DNA from: Terrirhizobium terrae
GTDB lineage: Bacteria; Pseudomonadota; Alphaproteobacteria; Rhizobiales; Rhizobiaceae
Direction: 5' to 3'
DNA: 64,000 nt
Assembly (NCBI RefSeq): GCF_030323265.1
Contig: NZ_CP104992.1
Span: 3,075,501 to 3,139,500 of the forward strand
The position numbers and the translations under genes were made by a program. How positions within the stretch are numbered: the first letter of the stretch is position 1; each line of letters opens with the position of its first letter. The notes below the pieces were generated by a model. That model made no database searches. It was given only the letters and a program-made list of their open reading frames with translations, and was not told the origin of the DNA. Shown here piece after piece: positions 11,820 through 14,476 of this stretch.

Positions 11820-13403
11820 TCAGGCGCGCATTTCGGCCGGCTCTGCCTTCGTGCGGTCGGCCGTGCTGATGCGCACCTTGTCGATATTGCGACCATCGAG
11901 TGCGACGACTTCATAGGTGAGGTCACCAAAGGTCACCGTTTCTCCCTGCTGCGGCAGGTGGCCGAGACGCCAGAGAATGAGGCCGGCCAGCGTGGAATAG
12001 CGGTCGGCATCATCCACGAGATCGCTATCCAGAAGTTTGGAGACATGGCGGATGTCGATCCAGCCATCGACGAGAAGTGAGCCGTCCTCGCCACGCTCGA
12101 CGGTCAGCTGCTCGTCGTCATCATCGGCAAAATCGCCGGCAATGGCTTCCAGCAGGTCGGTTGCCGTGACCATGCCTTCCACCGAGCCGTATTCGTCGAG
12201 AATGATCGCCACCTGTAGCGGCGACTGGCGCAGCTGTTCGAGCAGGCGCAGAGCATTGACGCTTTCATGCACGACGAGCGGCTGGCGCAGCGAACGCTCG
12301 AAATCGATCTTGCCGGTCTCGATGAAGTCGCGCAGAAGGTCCTTCGCCAACGCCACGCCGAGGAACTCGTCCAGGCTGCCGCGTGCGATCGGGAAGCGGG
12401 AATGGCCCGATTCCAGCACCTTGCGGCGAAGCTCCTCGTCGCTGTCCTCGATGTCCAGCCAGTCGATATCGAGGCGATGGGTCATCACTGACTTGGCGGG
12501 GCGGTCGGCAAGCGTCAGCACGCTTTCGATCATCTCGTGTTCGACCGGCGTGAACAGCTCGTTTTCCGAAGCGCGTTCGGCCATCACGTCGGCTGTCTCG
12601 CCGAGCGAGGCTTCGCCTCGGCGGCTGCCGAGCAGGGACAGGACGGCGCTTGCCGTGCGTTCGCGAAGATCACCCGTGGTCAGAACCCGCTCGCGATTGC
12701 GCCGCGCGATCTGGTTGAATGCCTCGATCAGAACCGAGAAGCCGATCGCGGCATAGAGATATGCCTTCGGAATGTGGAAGCCGAGGCCTTCGACGATCAG
12801 CGAGAAGCCGATCATCATCAGGAAACCGAGGCAGAGAATGACAACGGTCGGGTGCTTCGAAACGAAGGCCATGAGCGGCTTGGAAGCGAGCAGCATCACG
12901 CCGACGGCGACGACGACGGCAATCATCATGACGGAAAGATGCTGGACCATGCCGACGGCGGTGATGACGCTGTCGAGCGAGAACACCGCATCGAGCACGA
13001 CGATCTGAACGAGTACCTGCCAGAATACGGCATGCTCGACCTTGCCATCCTTGGGACCGGAATGGCCTTCAAGGCGTTCGTGCAGTTCCATCGTGCCCTT
13101 GAAAAGAAGGAACACGCCGCCAAACAGAAGAATAAGGTCTCGGCCGGAGATTTCGATGCCGAGCACGGTGAACAACGGTGCTGTTAGCGTGACGATCCAG
13201 GCGACCGAGGCAAGCAGGATGAGGCGCATGCCGAGCGCCAGGCTGAGGCCGATCAGGCGGGCTTTTTCCCGCTGATGCTCGGGCAGTTTGTCGGCAAGGA
13301 TCGCGATGAACACGAGATTGTCGATGCCGAGAACGATTTCAAGAACAATGAGGGTGGCGAGACCCGCCCATGCAGCGGGGTCGGACATCCATTCGAATAT
13401 CAT
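11820..13403 (-). CDS. TerC family membrane protein with CBS pair and CorC/HlyC domain
   Basis: A protein of about 527 residues. The N-terminal TerC domain (residues 1-200) has seven hydrophobic helices and the acidic, metal-site-like motifs [14 protein letters not shown] and [17 protein letters not shown] domain pair follows (about 290-410, including TVERGED downstream), then a CorC/HlyC domain (about 430-515). TerC proteins are linked to Mn or other metal export and membrane-associated metal loading; CBS-CorC parts probably sense nucleotides or ions. ATG 13403 (IFEWMSDP) is chosen: the in-frame TTG at 13463 would sit in the U-tract of a terminator-like hairpin. The 250-nt leader is strongly structured, suggesting control in the 5' untranslated region. 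Confidence 0.85.
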
Positions 13404-13762
13404 GATGACAAGCGGCCTGCCGATTCCAGCGGCCATTCCTTCTGTGGTTGAAAGGGAAAACAAAAAATGCCGCCCCAGGACGGGGACGGCAGCAGATTAA
13501 GCTGAAGTGTGATGGCGTGAACAAGCGTCCCCGGCTTATCGCGGGGCGCGGTCATCTCTCGACCATGAAGGAAGAACGTCCGGTTCGACATCGACGTCGA
13601 AGGCAACCGACGCGTCGAGCCGGACACACGCAATCGGGTGTCCATGGGCGCAGACTATAGCGATTGCGTTATGAAATGCATCCTCTCCAGGTAAAATTTT
13701 CGGGAGGAAGCACCTAGGCTGCCCGAAGGCAGCCAGCGGCTGTTGTCGGCATTCAGCACCCT
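13404..13762. other. Structured leader/intergenic region upstream of the TerC gene
   Basis: This 359-nt region has no convincing gene. On the minus strand, from the bdcA end towards TerC, it holds a perfect 7-bp hairpin GGCTGCC-TTCG-GGCAGCC near 13717-13734 (likely the end of bdcA transcription). Next come a long hairpin with outer arms GTCCGG/CCGGAC at 13578-13625, a GC hairpin near 13527-13551, and a terminator-like hairpin at 13461-13490. The last three would lie in the TerC leader RNA. Confidence 0.5.
13461..13490 (-). terminator. Terminator-like hairpin in the TerC leader (possible attenuator)
   Basis: On the minus strand GCCG-T-CCCC pairs with GGGGCGGC (one bulged T, loop GTCCT) and is followed directly by ATTTTTT. 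It is a good intrinsic terminator placed 57 nt before the TerC start codon, inside the leader rather than after a gene. Confidence 0.6.
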
Positions 13763-14476
13763 TCAGGCGCCGAAGCCGCCATCGATCGTGTGCATCGCGC
13801 CGGTGATGAAGCCTGCTTCCGGGCCCGCGAGATAGGCGGCGAGGCCGGCGATTTCCTCCGGTTTCCCGTGGCGTTTCAGAGCCATGAAACCATGCATCGT
13901 GTCCTTCATCGGACCATCCTTCGGGTTCATGTCCGTATCGGTCGGGCCGGGCTGGATGACGTTGACGGTTATGTTGCGGTCACCGAAGTCGCGGGCGAGG
14001 CCGCGCGCCATGCCCTGGACGGCAGATTTCGTCAGCGCATAGGCGGCACCGCCGGCAAAGGGCATGCGGTCGCCATTGACCGAACCGACGATGATGATCC
14101 GCCCGCCTTCCGGCATGTTGCGGGCCGCTTCGATCGAGGCGTGATAAGGGGCGCGCACGTTAATGTCGATCATCCGGTCGATGGCGTCAGGCTCAATCTC
14201 CAGCGGATTGCCAAGCGCCAGCGTGCCGGCATTCGCGACAAGCACGTCGAGCGGTCCGGCTGCCTTGACGGTGGCGATCGTCTCCGTCCGGTCCCCGGCG
14301 TCGGACTTGACTGCCTTGGCACCGGTCTCGGCGGCAAGTGCTTCTGCCGCATCCTTCGATCCGGCATAGGTAAAAGTCACCGTTGCGCCGTCGCCGGCAA
14401 AGCGGCGGACCAGAGAAGCGCCGATGCCGCGACTGCCACCCAGAATCAACACGTTCTTTCCATGAAAGTCTGTCAT
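13763..14476 (-). CDS. bdcA: SDR family oxidoreductase, BdcA-like
   Basis: A 237-residue short-chain dehydrogenase closely resembling Escherichia coli BdcA, reported as a cyclic-di-GMP-binding biofilm dispersal protein. Visible motifs are the cofactor loop LILGGSRGIGASLVRRF, NAG in VLVANAGTLA, the catalytic Ser in IIIVGSVNGDRMPF, and Tyr/Lys in AAYALTKSAVQGMARG. The near-identical order of GSVNGDRMP and TGAMHTIDGGFGA with BdcA and the divergent TetR gene support the name. Whether it binds c-di-GMP or acts as a reductase here is not shown. Regulation by the divergent TetR protein through the twin operators at 14511-14577 is likely. Confidence 0.82.
   Translation of the reverse strand: MTDFHGKNVLILGGSRGIGASLVRRFAGDGATVTFTYAGSKDAAEALAAETGAKAVKSDAGDRTETIATVKAAGPLDVLVANAGTLALGNPLEIEPDAIDRMIDINVRAPYHASIEAARNMPEGGRIIIVGSVNGDRMPFAGGAAYALTKSAVQGMARGLARDFGDRNITVNVIQPGPTDTDMNPKDGPMKDTMHGFMALKRHGKPEEIAGLAAYLAGPEAGFITGAMHTIDGGFGA

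Follow-up and report, generated by a model that had tools for sequence, protein, structure and literature searches.

The yybP-ykoY manganese riboswitch is known upstream of TerC-type genes, and the trpL attenuator of S. meliloti works through alternative hairpins and regulatory codons. Another arrangement is found in the YoaL-YoaE/MgpA system of E. coli and Salmonella, where a leader ORF overlaps the start of the gene that follows it. The Salmonella counterpart of YoaE, renamed MgpA, contributes to protection against excess Mg2+, and mgpA is upregulated at 10 mM Mg2+ and neutral or alkaline pH, according to the available text of PMC12421838. The same text describes the leader ORF yoaL, which overlaps mgpA, cites an earlier study in which a stop replacing the YoaL start lowered MgpA, and calls the mechanism of YoaL unclear. 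One open-access paper that treats YoaL and YoaE together was found. A further precedent is MgtL-mgtA (intrinsic ribosome destabilisation, IRD), in which failure of MgtL at low Mg2+ switches an importer on. Ribosome-destabilising sequences carry acidic residues, sometimes accompanied by proline, within the first 30 residues, as in the EPDP of MgtL (available part of PMC11282234). A leader ORF that is itself leaderless lies in the trpL attenuator of S. meliloti, a relative of the species considered here (available part of PMC10117765).

The locus compared with these systems lies on the minus strand of a 64,000-nucleotide stretch of the Terrirhizobium terrae contig NZ_CP104992.1 (the window), to whose positions all coordinates refer. 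It shares with YoaL-YoaE/MgpA a related downstream gene and a leader ORF that overlaps the gene start, as ATGA here and by 13 nt in E. coli. An intrinsic terminator inside the ORF distinguishes the window leader from that system, and the likeness of the two peptides was judged by eye only. Points in common with MgtL-mgtA are a magnesium-transport gene downstream and, in most alphaproteobacterial counterparts, acidic and often proline-bearing N-terminal leader peptides. The window peptide differs in having no acidic run, and the expected sign is the opposite, as the exporter would be on when translation succeeds. The ORF of S. meliloti trpL has 14 codons in the available part of PMC10117765, whereas the window ORF passes through its terminator and an antiterminator is unsupported. 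Among the open-access titles and abstracts listed, nothing was found on the window leader or on leader ORFs of the acidic type preceding TerC-CorC genes, which is weak evidence of absence since subscription papers fell mostly outside the search.

We consider it rather probable that this leader acts by translation-dependent attenuation and coupling, as a translated counterpart of YoaL, and not as a metal-binding RNA. Its sequence contains an open frame, lengths in multiples of three, a conserved peptide start, a terminator and an overlap with the gene, and it has acidic counterparts. We infer in addition that the leader is translated, that translation would control read-through, and that Mg2+ is the likely signal.

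The gene, its promoter region and the leader hairpins

The gene downstream of the leader (11820..13403, minus strand) encodes Pfam TerC, CBS and CorC_HlyC domains, as the first-pass annotation of the locus had proposed in calling it TerC/CorC. Its product shares 51% identity with E. coli YoaE/MgpA over 521 aa, and domains and identity mark it as the MgpA/YoaE relative that a YoaL-type system has downstream. Proteins of the MgpA type are probably Mg2+ exporters. The gene was found in 13 of the 57 genomes of the genus and in 35 of 247 genomes of the family (E ≤ 1e-100).

Five TerC-family genes exceed the cut-off in the window genome. Two copies of the Rfam terC RNA RF03067 (C1:1186156 and C1:3392800) lie in the same genome outside the window, and at least one is present in 57/57 genomes of the genus. 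Each copy stands 5' of another TerC-family gene (L026 1657-1715 and L027 1801-1858), and these two genes have shorter open frames of 341 and 240 aa. RF03067 gave no covariance-model match at the gene studied here at the thresholds used and was rejected as the identity of its leader, and no other Rfam family reached threshold in the window. The first-pass annotation had found no yybP-ykoY core, and this holds, with no covariance-model match to that class; it is absent among the four sub-threshold matches (E ≤ 10) in 13350-13780, all of which are unrelated.

A -10-like box, TATAGT (13654..13659, minus strand), lies 8 nt 5' of the leader ORF start. TATA is present at this place in 13/13 leaders, comprising 12/12 from the genus and one from another genus (L040). 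Further upstream, at -37 to -30, is a GATGCA-T block (13675..13682, minus strand) in which GATGCA and the second following T are invariant in 9/9 aligned leaders, and which is presumed to belong to the promoter. A consensus scan for sigma-70 promoters found none at the leader and did not pick up TATAGT. The short distance between the box and the ORF suggests that the transcript is leaderless or nearly so. A 26-nt pattern of the leader start has three exact matches in 394 family genomes and none for the reversed-pattern control, and all three are leaders of the gene described here (L001, L003, L040). Six matches with 3 mismatches lie elsewhere and were rejected, being by eye within other genes or an unrelated hairpin, and the same judgement was reached for a 35-nt match in another family (L010).

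Three hairpins on the minus strand ahead of terC, the last an intrinsic terminator, had been annotated at the first pass, and hairpins and terminator are real features of the sequence that are conserved. The terminator (13462..13491, with its stem at 13491-13468 and T-run at 13467-13462) lies before the gene and inside the leader ORF, and in 12 leaders it shows both-sided changes at two pairs. Its distance from the ATG at 13403 is 58 nt, not 57 as first given. The region is not poor in terminator-like sites, with 5 found against 3.2 ± 2.1 in shuffles. Hairpin P2 (13578..13625, arms 13625-13616 and 13587-13578, minus strand), possibly a pause hairpin, has 92.5% of cells paired and a both-sided change at one pair, and also forms in L040. 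Hairpin P3 (13525..13549, arms 13549-13542 and 13533-13525, minus strand) has 95.8% of cells paired, and a small GGTC/GACC hairpin 87.5% in the 12 aligned leaders; neither shows a both-sided change.

The leader was recovered by DNA search in 12/57 genomes of the genus, and thus 12 of the 13 copies of the gene found there carry it; it is also present in L040. Taken together, P2, the small hairpin, P3 and the terminator have 93.3% of cells paired in the 12 aligned leaders, a value that 0/500 shuffles reached. Both-sided changes occur at three pairs (28-61 of P2, 173-208 and 176-205 of the terminator), a count matched by 48/500 shuffles; the 11 both-sided cells were reached by 0/500. The first-pass annotation had made its proposal depend on conserved structure among homologous leaders, which these 12 leaders possess. 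The 201-nt leader stretch folds better than 200/200 shuffles (z -2.56), and in its single best fold the 5' end pairs with the terminator 3' arm and the terminator is not formed.

The leader reading frame

An open frame that the first-pass annotation missed runs through the whole leader into terC. This ORF of 81 codons (13400..13645, minus strand; MDTRLRVSG...GRLSS) begins with the ATG at 13645, passes through P2, P3 and the terminator, and closes with a TGA that ends at 13400 and forms an ATGA overlap with the start of terC. In 13/13 related leaders no stop interrupts this frame between the P2 3' arm and the terC ATG. P2 3' arm and U-run lie 117, 114, 135, 132, 120, 129 or 108 nt apart, seven different values, and in 13/13 leaders the spacing is divisible by 3. 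From the first ATG to P2 there are 59-61 nt, with no constraint on phase. A second frame is also open in 4/13 leaders (L007, L034, L008, L035), which makes the length phase a stronger sign than the open frame.

A single ORF of 80-81 codons is present in 8/13 leaders. In the five others (L008, L009, L035, L036, L040) the first ORF ends after 12-15 codons, and a second ATG 1-8 nt further on reopens the conserved downstream frame. The frame ends at +4 (ATGA) in 12/13 leaders and at +11 in L040, which has a 2-nt difference after the U-run. The position of this stop says little, as terC begins ATGA...TGAA, so that both of the other frames meet a stop no more than 11 nt from the gene start.

Conservation of the peptide is concentrated in codons 1-9, MD[TS]R[LM]R[VL]SG (13619..13645, minus strand), where the six codons that vary in 13 leaders do so synonymously in three cases and conservatively in three. 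The CGA at codon 4 is invariant and the peptide start is arginine-rich. Beyond codon 9 no amino-acid selection was found in 12 leaders, with changes of 45:43:44 by codon position and a synonymous fraction of 0.26 in the ORF frame versus 0.22 and 0.18 in the other frames. With codons 1-9 and the length phase kept and the remainder free of such selection, it seems to be the path of the ribosome and the peptide start that are conserved. If true, this would suggest that evolution keeps the path of the ribosome rather than the peptide. The start MDTRLRVSG and that of E. coli YoaL, MDRHRRHFS, both begin with MD and contain basic residues, in a comparison that was made by eye and is very short. The window peptide, MDTRLRVSGSTRR, contains one acidic residue, and its first codons lack the acidic or proline content of an MgtL-like IRD sequence. 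As the peptide is non-acidic, the destabilisation model does not transfer directly to the window clade.

Between the terminator and terC lies a putative ribosome-binding region (13414..13443, minus strand), which consists of an AGAAGGA box (13443-13437) and a further hairpin (13434-13414) that ends 10 nt 5' of the terC start and is absent from the first-pass annotation. The sequence of the hairpin varies while 83.3% of cells remain paired, which 0/500 shuffles equalled; both-sided changes occur at 2 pairs, as many as 355/500 shuffles reach. Its fold has a mean z of -1.85 in 17 leaders, with a range of -0.26 to -3.64. Box and hairpin possibly form a split ribosome-binding site, in which the hairpin may bring AGAAGGA near the terC start codon, or ribosomes reading the leader may open the hairpin. 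With the box brought near by the hairpin, terC may initiate on its own, which weakens the claim of obligatory coupling. A similar arrangement of AGAAGGA and hairpin is seen in the acidic-type leaders L158, L039, L072 and L127, described below. An in-frame ATG further upstream, at AGAAGGAATGG, was rejected as the terC start, as the codon is not ATG, GTG or TTG in 4/12 leaders.

Candidate modes of control

Under translation-dependent attenuation, the transcript would begin a few nt 5' of 13645 and carry the leader ORF with its conserved N-terminal peptide. Ribosomes trailing RNA polymerase through the leader would keep the terminator from forming, and would then be handed to the terC start via ATGA. 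Poor initiation, stalling or early drop-off would allow the terminator to form, leaving terC off. The signal would be ribosome performance dependent on free Mg2+, with terC on at high Mg2+, which is a sensible signal for a probable Mg2+ exporter of the MgpA type. In the window clade the leaderless start may matter, as in S. meliloti trpL, while in leaders with an acidic peptide low Mg2+ would abort leader translation and the exporter would stay off. A leader ORF running through a terminator into the gene would provide a concrete mechanism for the Mg2+ response of mgpA, which was called unclear in 2025 (available text of PMC12421838). A leader-peptide attenuator had been one option of the first-pass annotation; the P2-to-U-run phase in 13/13 leaders and the counterpart leaders favour it, but its usual companion, a mutually exclusive antiterminator, was not found.

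A simpler arrangement is constitutive translational coupling, in which the leader ORF does no more than supply terC with ribosomes, the terminator holds expression at a fixed low level, and nothing is sensed. The stop on the terC start in 12/13 leaders would suit this arrangement, as would leader ORFs that end near the gene start, which are common also where a terminator was not found. A purely constitutive leader would, however, have no need of a conserved terminator or a conserved peptide start, and Salmonella mgpA does respond to Mg2+ in the available text of PMC12421838. Coupling of this kind is considered unlikely.

The other proposal of the first-pass annotation was a divergent or new metal-sensing RNA, whose hairpins would, on binding a metal or metabolite, decide between terminator and antiterminator with no part played by translation. 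The conserved hairpins with some covariation are consistent with such a switch, and Rfam terC RNAs accompany two other TerC genes of the genome. In the window the 3' arm of P3 complements the 5' arm of the terminator, a candidate antiterminator that fits by eye. Across the aligned leaders it fares poorly: pairing reaches 85.4% versus 86.1% in shuffles, with no covariation. Truncating the transcript revealed no consistent switch either, since the terminator probability fell below 0.5 at only 7/341 truncations, in 4/13 leaders and at scattered positions, and the pairing was rejected. Folding does displace the terminator when the transcript carries at least 8 extra 5' nt in 3/13 leaders, the window's included, and the same displacement is seen in the best fold of the 201-nt stretch. 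A switch between P1 (GGACAC/GTGTCC) and P2 was set aside; five of the six P1 pairs are invariant, which leaves no possible covariation test.

The structure is moreover confined to one clade. When 247 family genomes were searched with the covariance model under stricter filters, only the window's own leader and L040 matched convincingly. A match in G161 (30.9 bits) was discarded, as by eye it adjoins a sequence resembling an insertion-element end and no TerC gene was seen there, and eight weaker matches (E about 0.002-0.01 per genome) were attributed to chance. A structure restricted to one clade and the want of a conserved antiterminator leave the metal-sensing RNA unsupported, and the reading phase kept by the P2-to-U-run lengths also speaks against it. 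We regard an RNA switch of this type as improbable.

To our knowledge, no link between a metal exporter and arginine has been described. Classical amino-acid attenuation, with stalling at given codons such as the CGA arginine codon switching the hairpins, is highly improbable, for while the invariant CGA at codon 4, the arginine-rich start and a near-leaderless ORF comparable to that of S. meliloti trpL (available part of PMC10117765) would fit, the peptide has no single-residue run, no antiterminator is supported, and the counterpart leaders of other genera have quite different residues.

Counterpart leaders in other bacteria

In other Alphaproteobacteria the matching leader ORF mostly starts acidic, for example MPDDSSDDSS, MPDEGDSTDSS and MPDDQSEEPPSP. 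Many of these starts also bear proline, and residues of this kind are reported to cause ribosome drop-off at low Mg2+. Leaders were placed in the acidic class by a filter (at least 2 acidic residues in codons 2-8) or by start patterns and then by eye, and the filter also returned unrelated ORFs at other loci. Acidity itself is thus not independent of the classification, unlike ORF length, changes at third codon positions and the location of the stop. MPGQSLEDPSS and MPKKNSEEPS are weak members. Among 30 upstream regions of the family, 23 are acidic, 2 are of the window type (the window and L040) and 5 are neither; two further family gene matches (G317 and G086) lie outside these 30. Eight further upstream stretches comprise two acidic leaders (L158, L162), one YoaL-like leader (L165) and five in which the filter found nothing. 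The named loci are the best 80 of at least 581 relatives, and among these 80 the 40 loci of alphaproteobacterial type, one of which bears a Bacillus label but resembles Pseudochrobactrum, divide into 32 acidic, with the class assigned by filter and by eye, 3 of the window type and 5 neither.

The acidic leaders bear signs of coding. In their first 8-10 codons, changes are distributed 5:11:22 over codon positions 1:2:3 in five groups (binomial p 0.0016, assuming independent changes), and the codon variants of these groups are 9 synonymous, 13 conservative and 11 neither. The ORFs of 43 acidic leaders exceed those of shuffles in length, with a Fisher p of about 1e-5 when the worst value is taken for each of 24 lineages; taken singly, most tests gave unremarkable p values of up to 0.53. 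This set held 11/23 of the acidic family leaders, the remainder coming mostly from groups already represented. In 31/43 acidic leaders the ORF stops between -40 and +17 relative to the start of terC, and a loose terminator finder placed a terminator inside the ORF in 21/43, outside it in 4 and found none in 18.

The thirteenth bearer of the gene in the genus of the window, G010, has an acidic leader, MPDGSETDESSESC. Its frame runs into CVFPF, which corresponds to FCFPF beside the U-run in the window. By sequence, the acidic and window types resemble a single ORF whose beginning has been swapped, and the window leader ORF apparently corresponds to the leader peptides that show signs of coding elsewhere in the Alphaproteobacteria.

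Similar ORFs extend beyond the Alphaproteobacteria. An out-of-frame ATG ORF of at least 25 codons that ends at -45..+20 is present at 54/80 loci (the best 80 of at least 581), against an expectation of 19.0 from shuffles in which the start of the gene itself was preserved; Acinetobacter supplies 19 of the 54, and so the loci are not independent. By eye, the Paracoccus and Pararhizobium ORFs among the 54 are like ordinary upstream genes. In Acinetobacter (L094-L123, again among the best 80 of at least 581) the ORF ends at +4 (ATGA) of a yoaE-type gene in 19/19 loci, and in 16/19 it starts M[SG]SGC, about 128-140 nt 5' of the gene. All 7/7 Pseudomonas loci among the same best 80 of at least 581 relatives have an overlapping ORF of at least 29 codons. 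EPPS or EPHS is found in the leader peptide of five Pseudomonas loci and one Paucimonas (L136, L137, L142-L145), likewise among the best 80 of at least 581.

A broader proposal, which we put forward tentatively and consider doubtful as a whole, is that MgpA-type exporters of Alphaproteobacteria and Pseudomonas are under the control of fast-changing leader ORFs that stop at the start of the gene, most of which would encode an acidic or proline-bearing peptide that causes drop-off at low Mg2+. The ribosome would then be the Mg2+ sensor and would switch the exporter on when Mg2+ is plentiful, in a mirror image of MgtL, and the window clade would be derived, with another peptide and a terminator in the ORF. 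If true, ribosome destabilisation, described for an importer, would through the acidic leaders apply to exporters as well.

Some loci deserve separate mention. In an alphaproteobacterial genome, L165 (G236 contig 293) has a YoaL-like leader, MDRHRRLF, before an enterobacterial-looking yoaE-type gene, and its contig is possibly contamination. L093 (JAHREI010000004.1), labelled Bacillus subtilis SK6B4, has a gene and leader much like those of Pseudochrobactrum L115, and its assembly is possibly mislabelled or contaminated. The Pseudomonas and Paucimonas leader starts MTSFSEPPS..., MSTFAEPPS... and MNTFLEPHS... recall the acidic and proline-bearing leaders of Alphaproteobacteria.
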